Position numbers and translations under genes: made by a program. From NCBI GenBank assembly GCA_035712365.1, contig DASTAW010000032.1, positions 1 to 64,000 of the forward strand: a stretch of 64,000 bases of DNA, given 5' to 3'. Below are positions 6,248 to 46,010 of the stretch, in pieces (the stretch's first letter is position 1; the number at the start of each line of letters is the position of its first letter). The notes under the pieces were generated by a model that was not told the origin of the DNA, did not search any database, and worked only from the letters and a program-made list of their open reading frames with translations. This DNA is from Terriglobia bacterium (GTDB lineage Bacteria; Acidobacteriota; Terriglobia; UBA7540).

Positions 6248-8110
6248 ATGTGTGGAATTTGCGGGGTATTCAATTTCGGAACGGGTGAGCCGGCCGAGCA
6301 CGCCCAGTTGAAACGCGCGGCGGATTCGATGGCGCATCGCGGGCCGGACGACGAAGGATTTTACCTGGACGGAGATCTCGGCATCGCGAACCGGCGGCTG
6401 AGCATCATCGATCTTCCCGGCGGACACCAGCCGCTGTCGAACGAGGACGGCAGCCTCTGGATCACCTACAACGGCGAAGTCTACAACCATCGCGAGTTGC
6501 GCCGGCAACTTGAAGGCCGTCACCAGTTTCGCACCGCGACGGACACAGAAGTCATTCTGCATCTCTACGAGGAGCACGGGACCGGCCTGCTGGAGCACCT
6601 GCGCGGGATGTTTGCCTTTGCGCTGTGGGACCGCCGCCAACGCCGCCTGATGCTGGCCCGCGACCGGATTGGCATCAAGCCGCTTTACTGTTTGAGCGAG
6701 CCCGGCCGCCTGGCCTTCGCCTCGGAGTTGCGTGCCTTGCGCGAGCTTGCAACGCGGCCGCTCGAAATCGATCCACAATCCGTTTATGATTTTTTCGGCT
6801 TTCGATATGTGCCCGCGCCGAACACTTTTTATCGCGACGTCAGCAAACTGCTGCCCGGCCATTTTTTAATCGCGGACTCGAACGGCGTCCGCCAGGAATG
6901 CTATTGGGACCTGCCGGGCGAGGACGAAAAGCCGCTGGCGGCGGAGGAGTATGCCGGCGAGGTGCTGGAGACCCTGCGGGACTCCGTCCGGCTGCGCCTG
7001 ATTGCCGACGTTCCGCTGGGAGTCTTTCTGAGCGGGGGCGTCGACTCCACGGCCATTGTGGCCATGATGTCGCACCTGGGCGTGCAGCCGCTGCGGACGT
7101 TTTCGGTTGGGTTTGAAGAGAAGGAATTCAGCGAGCTGCCCTACGCGCGGCGGGTCGCGGAGCGCTTTTCAACCGAACACACCGAGGTGGTGCTGCGGGC
7201 GCGCGACCTGACGGACGAGCTTCCGCGGCTGATTGCCTTCCGCGACGAGCCCGTAGCAGAGCCGACCGATGTTGCCCTCTACAGAATGTCGCTGAAAGCC
7301 GCCGAAACCGTCAAGGTGGTGCTGGCCGGCGAGGGCAGCGACGAGCTTTTCGCGGGTTATCCGAAATACGCGGCAGACCGGCTGGCCGGGCTGGTCTCGG
7401 CCTTTCCGCAGGAGGTCACCGGCACAATTTCCCGCTGGCTGCCTTTTCGCCAGCGCAGGGCGAAGCTGGCGCTCGAGGCGCTTTCAATTCCGGATGAGGC
7501 GGAACGTTCGGCCACCTGGTTCGCGTCTTTTTCCCGGCTGGAGCGAGAGGCGCTCTTCTCGCCGGACTTTCTGGCGCAGGTTGACCAGGCGCGCCCGGCC
7601 CGGGTTTTTGCGCAATATCTCGAGCATGTGCGCGAGCGGCCGCCGCTGAAGCGCATGTTGTATGCCGATCTCAAAATCTGGCTGCCCGATAATCTGCTGC
7701 TGCGCGGCGATCAGATGACCATGGCGGCTTCCATCGAGGAGCGCGTGCCGTTTCTCGATCACAAGCTGGTGGAGCTTGCCGCGCGCATTCCCGGGCGATT
7801 GCTCACACAGGGATTCCGCACCAAGGTGCTGCTGCGGCAGGCGCTCAGCCCTTATCTGCCGCCGGAAACATTGCGGCGGCGCAAGGTGGGTTTCACCGTG
7901 CCCGTCGGCGAATGGTTCAGGAAAACGCTCAATTCCTTTGTGGCTGACCTGCTGCTCTCGCGCGACGCGCGTTCGCGGGAATACTTTAATGCTGGCAATA
8001 TGGAAACCTTTGTGCGCGAGCATTTCGACGGCGTCCGCGATCGCCAGAAGCAGATCTGGGCGCTGGTGAATTTTGAGCTGTGGATGAAAGGAAGAGTGAA
8101 TCGTCGGTAG
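6248..8110 (+). CDS. asnB: Asparagine synthase (glutamine-hydrolysing)
   Basis: A 620-residue class B asparagine synthetase. Cys2 of MCGICGVF is the glutaminase nucleophile exposed after Met removal. The N-terminal Ntn-hydrolase domain spans about residues 1-210. The synthetase domain has the PP-loop SGGVDSTA near residue 264, and LAGEGSDELFAGYP near residue 356. It transfers amide nitrogen from glutamine to an acyl-adenylate; in polysaccharide clusters such enzymes often amidate sugar acids instead of making free Asn. It is followed by glycosyltransferase genes, which favours an envelope-polysaccharide role (inference). Its TAG stop is also the first bases of a short tandem array that begins the inserted four-helix-bundle element. 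Confidence 0.93.
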   Translation: MCGICGVFNFGTGEPAEHAQLKRAADSMAHRGPDDEGFYLDGDLGIANRRLSIIDLPGGHQPLSNEDGSLWITYNGEVYNHRELRRQLEGRHQFRTATDTEVILHLYEEHGTGLLEHLRGMFAFALWDRRQRRLMLARDRIGIKPLYCLSEPGRLAFASELRALRELATRPLEIDPQSVYDFFGFRYVPAPNTFYRDVSKLLPGHFLIADSNGVRQECYWDLPGEDEKPLAAEEYAGEVLETLRDSVRLRLIADVPLGVFLSGGVDSTAIVAMMSHLGVQPLRTFSVGFEEKEFSELPYARRVAERFSTEHTEVVLRARDLTDELPRLIAFRDEPVAEPTDVALYRMSLKAAETVKVVLAGEGSDELFAGYPKYAADRLAGLVSAFPQEVTGTISRWLPFRQRRAKLALEALSIPDEAERSATWFASFSRLEREALFSPDFLAQVDQARPARVFAQYLEHVRERPPLKRMLYADLKIWLPDNLLLRGDQMTMAASIEERVPFLDHKLVELAARIPGRLLTQGFRTKVLLRQALSPYLPPETLRRRKVGFTVPVGEWFRKTLNSFVADLLLSRDARSREYFNAGNMETFVREHFDGVRDRQKQIWALVNFELWMKGRVNRR

Positions 8111-8128
8111 CGAATGGCGAATAGGGGA
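8108..8128. repeat. Left heptamer array of four-helix-bundle element 1
   Basis: Tandem 7-nt words TAGCGAA and TGGCGAA, followed by a degenerate third word, start exactly on the TAG stop codon of asnB. The same word appears in inverted orientation four times at 8590-8617, on the other side of the four-helix-bundle gene. Confidence 0.7.
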
Positions 8129-8131
8129 AAA

Positions 8132-8563
8132 ATGAGCAACGGCAATCGTGGGACAAATACTTCCTCTGCTGGACTGCCCGCGGAGAAGTCAACCATCAAG
8201 TCTTACCGAGATTTGAAGGTATCGGAGCAAGCTATGGATTTGACGGTTGAATGTTACAAGCTGACGCAACGATTTCCCAAGACGGAGGTGTTCGGTATTG
8301 TTTCCCAAATCCGCCGTTCTGCCTCGTCGGTTCCTGCCAACATTGCCGAGGGCCATGGCCGGGAGGGTCGCGCGTACTTCATCCAATTTCTCAGAGTTGC
8401 TCAAGGCTCGTTGAAAGAGCTGGAGACGCATTTGCTCTTGTCAGCCCGGGTCGGGTTTCTGGACGATGGGGAAAGTGGCCCGGTCCTCCGGCGCTGCTCG
8501 GATGTCGGGAAAATGCTCCGGGGATTGATACGTGCGCTAGACGCCCGCACAGGTCGGCGCTAG
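8132..8563 (+). CDS. Four-helix bundle protein (S23/IVP, Avd-like)
   Basis: A 143-residue protein of the 23S-rRNA intervening-sequence / four-helix-bundle family. The hallmark core is IRRSASSVPANIAEG near residues 66-80, followed by the aromatic FIQFLRVAQGSLKELETHL helix. Proteins of this fold include Avd, which binds the reverse transcriptase and RNA template in diversity-generating retroelements; stand-alone members have no proven function. ATG 8132 is preferred because AGGGG lies 5 nt upstream; ATG 8114 falls inside the flanking repeat. No reverse transcriptase or 23S gene is nearby. The gene splits asnB from a glycosyltransferase gene and is bracketed by inverted short-repeat arrays, like its relative at 45617. 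Confidence 0.85.
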   Translation: MSNGNRGTNTSSAGLPAEKSTIKSYRDLKVSEQAMDLTVECYKLTQRFPKTEVFGIVSQIRRSASSVPANIAEGHGREGRAYFIQFLRVAQGSLKELETHLLLSARVGFLDDGESGPVLRRCSDVGKMLRGLIRALDARTGRR

Positions 8564-8589
8564 GCGGGGCTCGGCACAACGCGCACCTA

Positions 8590-8617
8590 TTCGCTACTCG
8601 CGACTCGCTATTCGCTA
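8590..8617. repeat. Right heptamer array of four-helix-bundle element 1
   Basis: Four in-phase 7-nt words (TTCGCTA, CTCGCGA, CTCGCTA, TTCGCTA) lie 4 nt upstream of the glycosyltransferase ATG. They are the inverse of the TAGCGAA words at 8108, so the two arrays form an imperfect inverted repeat around the four-helix-bundle gene. Confidence 0.75.
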
Positions 8618-8621
8618 ACGT

Positions 8622-9815
8622 ATGAACGAACCTTCCGCCCCTGCCGTTTGCATCATCATTGAAAACCTGACGGTGCCCGTCGATCGGCGCATGTGGCAGG
8701 AGGCGCGCACGCTTGCCGAAGCCGGTTATCACGTGTCGGTGGTGTGTCCCACCGGGCGCGGCTTTGAGCAGACTTACGAAGTGTGCGAAGGCATTGAAAT
8801 CTACCGGCACAAACTCTGGGAGGCGTCAGGACCGCTCGGGTACTTTTGGGAATACGCCGTCGCTCTGGCTTCGGAATTCCGCCTGGCGCTGAAGGCTTAC
8901 CGCCGGACGCGCTTCCGCATCATCCACGCCGCCAACCCGCCGGACACTATCTTTCTGATCGCACTTTTCTTCCGACTTTTCGGCGTGCGGTTTATCTTTG
9001 ACCACCACGACCTGAACCCGGAACTCTATGAGGCCAAGTTCGGCCGTCGCGGTTTGTTCTATCGTTTCGTGTGCCTCGCGGAGCGGCTGACTTATCGCAC
9101 GGCGACTGTTTCCATTGCCACCAACGAGTCTTATCGCGAGATTGCCCTCACCCGCGGCGGCATGGGCCCGGAGCGGGCCTTCGTCGTCAAAAGTTGTCCC
9201 GACCTTAAAAACATTTGCATTGGTCCGCCACGGCCCGAGTTGAAAAACGGCAAGCCGTTGATGGTGGTCTACGTGGGCGTGATGGGCCCGCAGGACGGCC
9301 TCGATTTGCTGCTGGAGTCGATCCGCTACATCGTCCGGGACGCCGGCCGCGATGATGTCTCGTTTGCGCTGATTGGCAGAGGTCCTGAGACGCCCAGGTT
9401 GAAAGCGCTGACCACGGAGAAAGGGCTGGATTCCTGCGTCACTTTCACCGGACGGGTGCCCGACGCCGAGATGTGGGCCTATCTTTCAACCGCCGATTTG
9501 GGCGTGGCGCCCGATCCGAAGAATCCCATGAACGACAAGTCCACTATGAACAAAATCCTCGAGTATATGGCGTTTAGCCTGCCGGTGGTGCTCTATGACC
9601 TCACCGAGGGCCGCCGCTCGGCAGGTGATGCCGCGCTCTACGCCCGGCCCAACGATCCAACGGATTTCGCGCGGCAGATGATCAAGCTGCTCGACTCCGG
9701 AGAGCTGCGCCGCACGCTTGGCGCCCGCGCCCGCCAGCGCATCGAAGAGGGTCTGAACTGGGACATCGAAAAACGCGAGCTGCTCAAGGCCTATGAAACG
9801 GCGCTGAGCGATTGA
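8622..9815 (+). CDS. GT4-family glycosyltransferase
   Basis: A 397-residue GT-B fold retaining glycosyltransferase, predicted cytoplasmic or membrane-associated. The N-terminal acceptor domain begins with the ENLTVPVDRRMWQEARTLAEAGY segment typical of WbuB-like enzymes. The C-terminal donor domain has VYVGVMGPQDGLDLLLES near residue 208 and a closing LEYMAFSLPVV near residue 310, where GT4 enzymes bind the nucleotide-sugar. It presumably adds a sugar to a lipid-linked repeat unit together with the polyprenyl sugar transferase at 11148. Donor and acceptor are not predictable from sequence alone. Confidence 0.88.
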   Translation: MNEPSAPAVCIIIENLTVPVDRRMWQEARTLAEAGYHVSVVCPTGRGFEQTYEVCEGIEIYRHKLWEASGPLGYFWEYAVALASEFRLALKAYRRTRFRIIHAANPPDTIFLIALFFRLFGVRFIFDHHDLNPELYEAKFGRRGLFYRFVCLAERLTYRTATVSIATNESYREIALTRGGMGPERAFVVKSCPDLKNICIGPPRPELKNGKPLMVVYVGVMGPQDGLDLLLESIRYIVRDAGRDDVSFALIGRGPETPRLKALTTEKGLDSCVTFTGRVPDAEMWAYLSTADLGVAPDPKNPMNDKSTMNKILEYMAFSLPVVLYDLTEGRRSAGDAALYARPNDPTDFARQMIKLLDSGELRRTLGARARQRIEEGLNWDIEKRELLKAYETALSD

Positions 9816-9899
9816 AGTAGTGCCATGCCAGCGGTCTTATGCAGTGGGTGATTGGATACCTTATTCAATGCTGGTGTCCAATATGGTAAAATCAGGCGT

Positions 9900-10103
9900 A
9901 TGGAAACTGCTCGTAAAATCACCGTGGAAGTGCCGCCAGATCTGCTGAAGAAGGCGCAAAAGGCTAGCGGCTCGGGCGTCACTCAAACCGTCCGTGCCGG
10001 CCTCGAACTTGTGGCGGCGTCGGAAACCTATGCTAACCTGCGCAGGCTCCGGGGCAAGGTGCGGTTCTCCCAAAGCCTGGCGGAACTGAAGACCGACCGA
10101 TGA
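9900..10103 (+). CDS. VapB-type antitoxin
   Basis: A 67-residue protein whose N-terminus (RKITVEVPPDLLKKAQKAS) has the beta-strand then helix pattern of ribbon-helix-helix antitoxins. The C-terminal half (GKVRFSQSLAELKTD) would wrap the toxin. The stop overlaps the toxin start by the ATGA arrangement, typical of VapBC operons. The ATG at 9900 is chosen over an upstream in-frame ATG at 9852 because translation from 9900 gives the usual antitoxin length. The pair probably autoregulates by binding its own promoter, as family members do. Confidence 0.8.
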   Translation: METARKITVEVPPDLLKKAQKASGSGVTQTVRAGLELVAASETYANLRRLRGKVRFSQSLAELKTDR

Positions 10104-10480
10104 TTGCCGCCGACACGAGCACCTGGATTGCTTATCTCGAAGGCATCAGGGGCAAAGATGTCCAGTTGCTTGACAAGGCGCTCGGGGACCGGCAGGTCGT
10201 GATGGTGCCTGTTGTGCTGACGGAGCTGTTAAGCGACCCCAAACTTCCCACAAGTGTTTCGAGGACCCTCGCCGAAGTTCCGCTGGTTGAAATCCGATCT
10301 GGTTACTGGGAAAGAGCTGGTGCGCTGCGGGCGTTGGTGCTGGCGAAGCGCCGCAAGGCGCGCCTTGGCGACGCGCTGATCGCTCAGGCCTGCATCGATC
10401 GGGGCATGTCTCTCATTACACGCGACCGGGACTTCCGGGCATTTGCCGAAGCCGCGGGTTTTGACCTCGTGATGGGGTAG
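10100..10480 (+). CDS. vapC: VapC-type PIN-domain ribonuclease toxin
   Basis: A 126-residue PIN-domain protein. Acidic active-site residues are visible: Asp5 in IAADTSTW, Glu in VLTELLSD (about 42), Asp in RLGDALIA (about 92) and Asp in ITRDRDF (about 112). VapC toxins cleave tRNA or rRNA and are held inactive by VapB. It overlaps the antitoxin by 4 nt and sits inside the polysaccharide region between the GT4 gene and the convergent sugar transferase, so it is probably an accessory insertion. Confidence 0.87.
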   Translation: MIAADTSTWIAYLEGIRGKDVQLLDKALGDRQVVMVPVVLTELLSDPKLPTSVSRTLAEVPLVEIRSGYWERAGALRALVLAKRRKARLGDALIAQACIDRGMSLITRDRDFRAFAEAAGFDLVMG

Positions 10481-28757: not shown

Positions 28758-28864
28758 AGCGACATTCCGCCGAATTTGCTTGACAAACACTGGCCTAGCA
28801 TGGTAGTCTTCTTTCAGATGCCTGCAAGCCGCGAGTTTTCCGGGACCAAAAGAGACAAAATGGG

Positions 28865-29083
28865 ACAAAAAAACACGTTTTTTGAAAAACAAACCGGAGA
28901 GGTTGTTGAAAAAAAAGAGAAATGGCCAAAAAACAAACCGGAACAAACCGGAAAACAAAGCGGAGAAGTTATTGAAAACACGTGCCTGTGGAAAAAACGA
29001 ACCGGAACGAACCTAAAAACAAAGCTACCGATCTTGTTGAAAACACTAGAGAGCCAAAAAAAACGAACCGGAGTCCCACGTGC
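28865..29083. repeat. Diverged 64-nt tandem repeat array
   Basis: About three and a half units (28865-28927, 28928-28991, 28992-29055 and a partial to 29083). Full units 2 and 3 are exactly 64 nt and share AAAAAACRAACCGGAACRAA at the start and TTGTTGAAAACAC-like words later. The array is strongly A-rich on this strand, unlike the GC-rich surroundings. It is not a CRISPR: no constant repeat with variable spacers is seen. Confidence 0.65.
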
Positions 29084-44374: not shown

Positions 44375-45538
44375 ATGAAGATTCACGAATATCAAGCCAA
44401 GCAGATACTCACGCGGTTTGGAGTTTCGGTCCCCAAGGGTGACGTTGCTTATACGCCGGAAGAGGCCCGCGAAATTGCTACGCGTCTGGGCGGGACGGTG
44501 GTGGTGAAAGCGCAGATCCACGCGGGAGGCAGAGGCAAGGCCGGCGGTGTCAAGCTGGCGCGCTCGGCGGCGGAAGCCGAAACCATCGCCGGCGAGATCC
44601 TGGGCAAGAAGCTGGTGACCGCGCAAACCGGGCCCGAGGGCCGCATCGTGCGCCGGCTGTTGATCGAGGAAGGCCTCGACATCGCCCGCGAGTTTTACCT
44701 GGGACTCGTAATTGACCGTATGTCCGCCGCTCCGGTTTTTATGGCCTCGAGCGAAGGCGGTGTCGAGATCGAAGTGGTGGCTGCGGAGCATCCTGAGAAG
44801 ATTTTGAAGGAACTCGTCAATCCCGCCACCGGCCTTCAGCCGTTTCAGGCGCGCAAGATCGCCTTCGGGCTGGGGATCGATACCGCGCTCGTGAACGAAG
44901 CCGTGCGCTTTTTTGCGGCGCTCTATCGGGCCTTTCAGTCGAGCGATGCCTCGCTGGCGGAGATCAACCCTTTTGTGGTGACGCGCGACGGTCGCCTGCT
45001 GGCGCTCGATGCCAAGATGAATTTCGATGATAACGCGCTGTTTCGGCACAAGGACTTCCGCGAGTTGCGCGACCTGGATGAAGAAGATCCCCTGGAAGTG
45101 AAGGCCTCGAATTACAACCTGAATTACATCCGCCTCGACGGCAACGTCGGGTGCATGGTGAACGGCGCGGGGCTCGCCATGGCCACCATGGACATCATCC
45201 AGTATGCTGGCGGCCAGCCGGCCAACTTTCTGGATGTGGGCGGCGGCGCCAATGAGGAGCAGGTCCGCCGCGGCTTCGAAATCATTCTGGGCGATCCGAA
45301 CGTTCGCGCAGTGCTCATCAACATATTCGGCGGCATCATGCGCTGTGACATCGTGGCCAGCGGCGTGGTGGCTGCAGCGAAGAGCCTGGGCATCAAGGTC
45401 CCAGTGGTGGTCCGTCTTGAAGGCACCAACGTCGATCTCGGCCAGAAGATCCTGAAGGAATCTGGCCTGCGTTTCACCGTGGCCAATGGCATGAAGGACG
45501 CGGCAGAAAAGGTGGTGGCGCAAGCGAGAAGTAATTGA
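44375..45538 (+). CDS. sucC: Succinyl-CoA ligase beta subunit
   Basis: A 387-residue ATP-grasp subunit of the TCA-cycle enzyme that couples succinyl-CoA cleavage to nucleoside triphosphate formation. It opens [17 protein letters not shown], has [14 protein letters not shown] near residue 45, the metal and nucleotide site [26 protein letters not shown] near 197, and [13 protein letters not shown] near 322. The TGA stop lies within the first word of a tandem octamer array; the alpha-subunit gene begins only after the inserted four-helix-bundle gene, 488 nt later. Confidence 0.96.
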
Positions 45539-45589
45539 ATCATTGAATGATTGATTCATTGACTCATTGTTAGATTGACCTGTTGATTA
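45534..45589. repeat. Left octamer array (ATTGNNNN) of four-helix-bundle element 2
   Basis: Seven contiguous 8-nt words fill this interval; six begin ATTG (starts 45534, 45542, 45550, 45558, 45566, 45574) and the last begins GTTG. The sucC stop codon (45536-45538) lies inside the first word. The same word occurs inverted with 8-nt spacing at 45988-46007. Confidence 0.85.
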
Positions 45590-45616
45590 GCTCTAGTGCC
45601 TGGCTTGGTTTCGGGA

Positions 45617-45979
45617 ATGGCGGGAGTCTACAAAGCTGATGAGTTAAAGGTTCGCAGCAAACGATTTGCCATCGCCATCGTTAGGCTTGTTCGCGAGCTG
45701 CCCCGAAACGAAGAGGCGCGCATCCTGGGAAGACAACTTCTGCGGTCAGGTACTTCCGTTGCCGCGAACTATCGGGCGGTGTGTAGAGCAAGATCAAAAG
45801 CGGAATTTATTGCTAAGCTTGGGGTAGTGGTTGAAGAAATTGATGAAACCGCCTTTTGGATTGAGCTGCTTGCTGAATCGGAAACATTTCCGCAGGAGCG
45901 GCTGAGAGACATTGAAAGAGAGGCAAACGAGCTGCTGGCGATTTTTGCCGCATCTCGAAACACGGCCAAGAAACGATGA
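45617..45979 (+). CDS. Four-helix bundle protein (S23/IVP, Avd-like)
   Basis: A 120-residue protein of the same family as the gene at 8132. The core ILGRQLLRSGTSVAANYRAVCRARSKAEFIAKLGVVVEEIDETAFWIELL (about residues 32-82) is the family hallmark, with the second half acidic as is usual. ATG 45617 has GGGA just upstream; an in-frame GTG at 45596 is also open. It interrupts the otherwise universal sucC-sucD neighbourhood and is flanked by inverted arrays of 8-nt words. Stand-alone members have no established function; Avd relatives bind RNA and a reverse transcriptase. Confidence 0.85.
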   Translation: MAGVYKADELKVRSKRFAIAIVRLVRELPRNEEARILGRQLLRSGTSVAANYRAVCRARSKAEFIAKLGVVVEEIDETAFWIELLAESETFPQERLRDIEREANELLAIFAASRNTAKKR

Positions 45980-45985
45980 GCGAAG

Positions 45986-46010
45986 TTCAATCATTCAATC
46001 TGTCAATCAG
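45986..46010. repeat. Right octamer array of four-helix-bundle element 2
   Basis: CAAT (inverse of ATTG) recurs at 45988, 45996 and 46004, exactly 8 nt apart, just before the sucD start region. With the array at 45534-45589 it forms an inverted pair around the four-helix-bundle gene. Confidence 0.75.

Follow-up and report, generated by a model that had tools for sequence, protein, structure and literature searches.

A 64,000-nt stretch from a Terriglobia bacterium (GCA_035712365.1, contig DASTAW010000032.1, positions 1–64,000; hereafter the window) contains, between the asparagine synthetase gene asnB and a glycosyltransferase-like gene, a short gene of the PF05635 family (23S_rRNA_IVP, here IVP) flanked by inverted arrays of 7-nt words, the left of which lies on the asnB stop codon. 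To our knowledge, no function is annotated for the four-helix-bundle IVP genes found across bacteria, and heptanucleotide repeats, although reported for decades, have neither an accepted maker nor an accepted reader. What kind of unit joins the two here, and why does it sit on a stop codon? We propose a minimal, mostly selfish one-gene element, in which a ring protein would read five-word ends and which would spread rarely into gene 3′ ends, a reading to which we give roughly an even chance on the comparative sequence evidence set out below.

Two IVP units in the window

The asnB gene (6248–8110, + strand) ends in a TAG (8108–8110) that forms the third core of the left array of unit 1. Comparison with congeners defines this array as five degenerate 7-nt words (8094–8124, + strand; GAGTGAA TCGTCGG TAGCGAA TGGCGAA TAG), the first two of which are recognisable only via the same-site loci L071 (TAGCGAA TCGTGAG TAGCGAG TTGCAAA TAG) and L070 (TAGGGAG TAGGAAG TAGCGAG TAGGGAA TAG). 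The first-pass annotation had the array starting exactly at the stop; the stretch TAGCGAA TGGCGAA TAG does begin at 8108–8110, but because the congeners show the array extending into the last asnB codons, the complete array straddles the stop. The IVP gene follows (8132–8563, + strand; profile match, AlphaFold2 (AF2) model and Foldseek). Its longest open reading frame (ORF) spans 8114–8563 (149 codons), and ATG 8132 is more likely to be the start than ATG 8114, because the former is kept in congeners, whereas the latter falls within the array. The right array (8587–8617, − strand; identified with Tandem Repeats Finder and by shuffling) reads in reverse complement TAGCGAA TAGCGAG TCGCGAG TAGCGAA TAG (31 nt, period 7, 4.4 copies by Tandem Repeats Finder) and lies 4 nt from ATG 8622 of the downstream gene (8622–9815, + strand), which is intact and was named glycosyltransferase-like by eye from sequence. 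This distance had been described correctly, but the four inverted words counted there are five cores, i.e. four full words and a core. All three genes lie on the + strand. The inverted match between the left and right arrays of unit 1 was reached by 0/1000 dinucleotide shuffles and the periodicity of the right array by 1/2000, while that of the left array alone in this genome is not significant (470/2000 shuffles). Gene, arrays, and spacing are otherwise present as first described.

The second unit (unit 2, 45534–46009) is likewise seated on an upstream stop, as had been noted, and employs the 8-nt word ATTGAATC. In its left array (45534–45569, + strand), the core ATTG occurs five times, 8 nt apart (ATTGAATC ATTGAATG ATTGATTC ATTGACTC ATTG), with the sucC stop TGA (45536–45538) within the first word; the IVP gene occupies the sucC/sucD junction (45617–45979, + strand; Pfam E = 1.9e-15), and the right array (45986–46009, − strand) consists of TTCAATCA units, inverted ATTGAATG words. 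Shuffled sequences reached the periodicity of the left array in 0/2000 and of the right array in 8/2000 cases.

Elsewhere in the window, two small overlapping genes at 9852–10480 appear toxin-antitoxin-like by eye, the second being PIN-like, and a large intergenic gap contains two short tandem repeats of 10–12 nt (28842–28964) with no adjoining IVP gene.

Recurrence of the arrangement and its seat at stop codons

A genome-wide search for the family, with words and distances tabulated, had been proposed with the first description; the arrangement recurs in relatives and in many phyla, with dozens of lineages represented. The comparison set comprises 205 IVP loci from the genome of the window, 60 relatives, and many phyla; 88 of these were taken from many phyla by scanning a single genome for each species, and results are given for near and broad loci. 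The relatives are phylogenetically related, so that counts are not independent; gene calls use the codon usage of the window only, starts are approximate, and array edges are fuzzy. The genome of the window has nine PF05635 copies, and at least one copy was found in 50 of the 61 genomes searched (maximum 23). Flanks periodic above the 99% shuffle level are observed in 115/116 of the near loci and 68/87 of the broad ones, compared with 17/380 control windows; a copy without them, which the first-pass annotation had named as evidence against such a unit, is thus rare among relatives (1/116). Most loci have an array period of 7 (or 14, twice 7), a few lineages have 8 or 9, and spacings are mixed within one array at L019. 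The arrays are inverted with a fixed polarity, purine-rich AG words running from the outside inwards (122:13 on the left, 133:10 on the right), the cores are usually AGN (e.g. in TCAGYNN, AGTGACN, and TAGSGAN), and terminal inverted repeats exceed the cross-locus 95% null in 110/124 loci.

Some loci are observed with unusual features. A minority shows the opposite polarity, with CT words from the outside inwards (L182, L183, L185, L190, L202, and L228; several are from Chloroflexota). Two IVP loci of Saprospiraceae (L253) combine 9-nt words with arrays of great length (>20 words), and IVP elements of a Pseudanabaena plasmid (L322) and an Anabaena plasmid (L326) are placed in CRISPR loci, with cas6 on one side and cas4 on the other. 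No phage host of an IVP element was found by tblastn.

The seat at the stop codon is general. All upstream sense genes called by codon usage (59/59) end between −24 and +41 nt relative to the start of the left array, and in the 46 fully co-directional cases the median distance from the upstream stop to the array is 3 nt, with the right array 18 nt from the next start. In a test using reading frames only, an upstream sense ORF ends no more than 30 nt from the left array in 77/91 of the near loci and 37/46 of the broad ones, compared with 8–12% of random positions. The original gap was shorter than 80 nt in 44/46 elements, and such gaps make up ∼5–7% of the intergenic DNA of the window. The gene contexts are co-directional (++) in 47 cases, convergent (+−) in seven, antisense (−−) in four, and divergent in none. 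The idea of a common placement rule is supported, with both neighbors left intact. The seat may reflect insertion that is targeted or, alternatively, selection favoring co-transcription within operons. TAG accounts for 18/46 host stops and 17/53 stops in the window, such that enrichment is not clear, and a universal rule of a stop codon inside the word was rejected: it holds for TAG and TGA words (including the gene-less TGAANNN), but fails for TCAGYNN. Where a word does hold a stop and its period is not a multiple of three, several frames are closed as a result, which may help to make the unit harmless; TCAGYNN words do not have this frame-closing property.

Arrays also occur without the gene. 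The TGAANNN pattern matches 92 times in the genome of the window, where only two IVP genes have that word (reversed-pattern control, two matches); several of these gene-less arrays are inverted pairs 50–150 nt apart, and they too lie at stop codons wherever a gene can be called. AGYNNTC arrays give >200 matches in some relatives. The number of these dispersed arrays correlates with IVP copies (rho 0.80, 61 genomes), a value that is indicative given that matches overlap within arrays and the genomes are related. AGYNNTC arrays are absent from 9/11 genomes without IVP; G029 has 2 matches and G043 has 23. G043 has no detected PF05635 gene, its IVP being possibly lost or unassembled. At two junctions on contig C38 of G000 (L331 and L336), two word families, the 8-nt GATTGAGT and the 7-nt TGAATTA, lie side by side, as if several elements had accumulated at the same stop. 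Clustered identical array pairs on the same contig were considered as a recent burst of miniature inverted-repeat transposable elements, which was rejected, as the pairs seem to adjoin duplicated host genes.

A putative five-subunit reader and alternative explanations

The unit 1 and unit 2 proteins match PF05635 with 119 bits (E = 1.3e-34) and 57 bits, respectively (cut-off 33.8). The AF2 model of the unit 1 protein (mean pLDDT 89) has four helices (residues 35–51, 62–82, 86–112, and 118–146). Its closest Foldseek matches are 2gsc (X. campestris XCC0516; TM score 0.94 by target length) and then 2rld, followed by Avd of a Bordetella phage diversity-generating retroelement (DGR; 4dwl and 8ub7; TM scores by target length 0.84–0.87 for Avd, with 0.87 for 4dwl), to which sequence identity is 12–13%, with the Pfam bAvd match below cut-off. 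The crystal structures of the homologues 2gsc and 2rld have five chains each, as does 4dwl, and PMC4990558 describes X. campestris S23p as a homopentameric toroid.

Five is also the most frequent number of cores in the arrays. The length of the best segment peaks at 30–33 nt (86/230 arrays in that 4-nt bin), which is four periods plus a core, and therefore five cores. Period-7 arrays have three cores in 15 cases, four in 57, five in 88, six in 30, and seven in 18, and the chance that an array ends at three, four, five, six, or seven words is 0.06, 0.24, 0.49, 0.33, and 0.30, respectively; 84% retention is observed for word 5 and 49% for word 6. The match between five words and five chains leads to the hypothesis of a ring reader and is suggestive of one word per subunit. 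A single strand wrapped on the ring would fit the array spacing better than duplex DNA, because spacings of 7, 8, and 9 nt would face different sides of a duplex helix.

The proposed element would have a single gene flanked by its two ends and coding for a ring-forming IVP/S23 four-helix-bundle protein. Each end would be a recognition site, typically of five cores 7 nt apart, read from the outside inwards, and a pentameric ring may bind one word per subunit along a single RNA or DNA strand, as TRAP does on NAG repeats. Such binding would mark the ends of the element itself and of its gene-less relatives, and rare spread into gene 3′ ends would employ an enzyme encoded elsewhere, e.g. a host nuclease, a replication enzyme, or a reverse transcriptase. 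TRAP, an 11-mer ring that takes one NAG-type triplet per subunit at 5-nt spacing, is the nearest ring reader; the likeness is by analogy only (a ring and repeated words), as its fold is unrelated and its 11 subunits and 5-nt spacing contrast with the 7 nt here. Both the ring reading and the mobility of the element are what we infer from sequence.

Several observations weigh against this proposal. Five is only the most frequent number of words (33%; 22% of arrays have four and 13% six), and some arrays have 10–30 words. No catalytic domain is recognised in the IVP family, nor was an enzyme found as its partner. Near-identical IVP copies at different sites within one genome were not found (the best pair has 77% protein identity), so that recent jumping is not seen; the gene-less copies of contig C38 go in part with host genes that are themselves duplicated; and a target-site duplication is not established, the array edges being fuzzy and the empty sites ∼15% diverged. 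Because synonymous divergence is saturated among genes that have stayed at one site, a benefit to the host instead of selfishness is also conceivable.

In a different explanation, the unit is a resident regulatory module that is immobile, vertically inherited, and host-serving, the IVP protein binding its own leader array in the mRNA in a TRAP-like autoregulation or attenuation. Same-site IVP genes have dN/dS values of 0.05–0.46 where synonymous change is unsaturated (others are saturated); the resident genes are under purifying selection. This same-site inheritance across genera, the co-directional operon seat (47/58), and the lack of recent within-genome copies all favor such a module. However, a leader site needs no symmetric pair of inverted arrays, one at each end; the host genes show no relation to one another; and the gene-less copies number in the hundreds. 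Moreover, occupied and empty alleles alternate among close relatives: the sucC|sucD site is occupied in G000, G002, G005, G006, and G010 but empty in G001, as it is in G018, G024, and G023, with gene-less arrays in G021. At asnB, the element is present in G000, G001, G002, G005, and G011 and missing from G016 and G024. We consider a resident module rather unlikely. The units appear to be long-lived residents that move rarely.

Excision of an RNA hairpin, as in the 23S rRNA intervening sequences (IVSs), is improbable. The arrays would pair and RNase III would cut the unit from the polycistronic mRNA, protecting the neighbors; the mutual complementarity of the arrays and their intergenic operon position are consistent with this, and the Coxiella rRNA IVS, with S23p and heptamers, is cut by RNase III according to PMC4990558. 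Pairing between left and right arrays at the variable letters (0.566), however, is close to that of shuffled word orders (0.551), i.e. without selection for pairing, for which reason a conserved hairpin formed by the two arrays was rejected, and the number and length of arrays are often unequal between sides. Turnover of arrays after insertion is supported (the first-pass annotation had raised expansion): among orthologues at one site the cores are retained, while variable letters and copy number differ. Since cores are kept while variable letters drift unpaired, the arrays behave as sets of putative binding words rather than as a stem.

It had also been suggested that the word derives from the target. 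On this account, which we regard as very doubtful, insertion would copy a word from the host gene's 3′ end, and amplification on either side would follow, in keeping with the upstream stop often lying in the first word and with the empty recX|alaS site of G001, which reads AATTATGAACTCTGAA, two word-like units of the G000 array. The G001 words are either a target feature or an excision scar, and no word was found in the empty sucC|sucD sites (G001, G018, and G024) or the empty L003 site in G002. When only different sites are compared, word similarity is 0.17–0.20 at <50% protein identity and 0.33, 0.45, and 0.54 at 55–60, 60–70, and 70–80% identity, and the protein-word correlation of a Mantel test restricted in the same way was matched by 0/1000 permutations. 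Because words at different sites track protein lineage, derivation from the target is disfavored; the words appear to belong to the element. At the recX-alaS junction of G002 (L279, contig C20), a different insert of ∼690 nt, which contains a small ORF as well as a stretch duplicated in tandem, is observed at the site of the IVP element of G000.

Least credible are ordinary slippage-made simple repeats near stop codons with an incidental IVP gene: heptameric repeats are over-represented in many bacteria with slippage proposed (cited in PMC4692102 and PMC4679880) and copy number varies within lineages, but plain slippage is not expected to give a length distribution humped at five, nor does it fit the fixed inverted polarity, the covariation of word and protein, and the correlation of array load with IVP copies.

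Relation to known repeats and elements

Comparable repeats are known from several bacteria. They include the short tandemly repeated repetitive (STRR) heptanucleotides of cyanobacteria (PMC2670836), GGGAATC in Xanthomonas and GGGGAYT in Nostoc, mostly of four units and nearer the 5′ neighboring ORF, with 70 inverted heptamer pairs in one strain (PMC4692102), and TAACTGA in Beggiatoaceae (PMC4679880). For these repeats, G-quadruplex formation, translational regulation, and slippage have been proposed as roles or origins (PMC2670836, PMC4692102, PMC4679880). All resemble the arrays described here in having tandem 7-nt intergenic words, few units, and positions near stop or start codons, and the GGGAATC repeats also in forming inverted pairs. 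In contrast, the passages on the STRR, Xanthomonas, and Beggiatoaceae repeats name no IVP/S23 gene or mobilising protein, and a link between heptamers and dispersed IVP genes is absent from the literature passages searched (preprints not covered). TCAGTTA, the reverse complement of TAACTGA, occurs among the words of IVP elements, and cyanobacterial plasmid IVP genes (L321–L326) are flanked by heptamers. By appearance, the STRR, GGGAATC, and TAACTGA repeats and the heptamers of the Coxiella IVS are arrays of this same type.

The 23S rRNA IVSs of Coxiella and Leptospira share the protein family and complementary ends with the elements here, which differ in lying at stops in protein-coding operon junctions and in having inverted five-word arrays and gene-less copies. 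The window units are flanked by asnB/glycosyltransferase and sucC/sucD, i.e. not located in helix 25 or 45 of 23S rRNA, and a comparison with Rfam gave nothing anywhere in the window.

The nearest functional analogue is the REPIN-RAYT system of repetitive extragenic palindromic (REP) doublets and their transposase. Both systems combine a gene that has flanking inverted short repeats with many gene-less intergenic doublets, but the IVP element has tandem heptads instead of REP palindromes and another protein fold, and in its gene only PF05635 and the sub-cut-off bAvd match were found, with no Y1/HUH transposase domain. A RAYT partner suggested by shared upstream ‘RYEPGG’ ends was rejected, as the genes resemble MacB/FtsX-type permeases. 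With Avd the common ground is the four-helix-bundle fold, set against the low identity given above; neither a reverse transcriptase nor template or variable repeats were noticed around the element, for which no systematic search was made. Terminal inverted repeats are a feature that the elements share with insertion sequences and miniature inverted-repeat transposable elements. Membership in the IVS, RAYT, or insertion sequence families fails because either the location is wrong or the enzyme is missing.

The wider proposition is that such units are widespread one-gene mobile elements, in which a pentamer reads five words, seats at stops, and drifts in specificity along with its words; we put this forward tentatively, as somewhat short of an even chance. 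If it is true, the heptanucleotide repeats of cyanobacteria, Xanthomonas, Beggiatoaceae, and others would be the binding sites of IVP proteins and the gene-less offspring of their elements. Linking the two would provide a testable function for both and explain the period of 7 and the tendency to five units, and the naturally diversified pairs of protein and word could allow the code to be read. It would also describe an insertion niche, the stop codons of tight operon junctions, in which operons are left intact.
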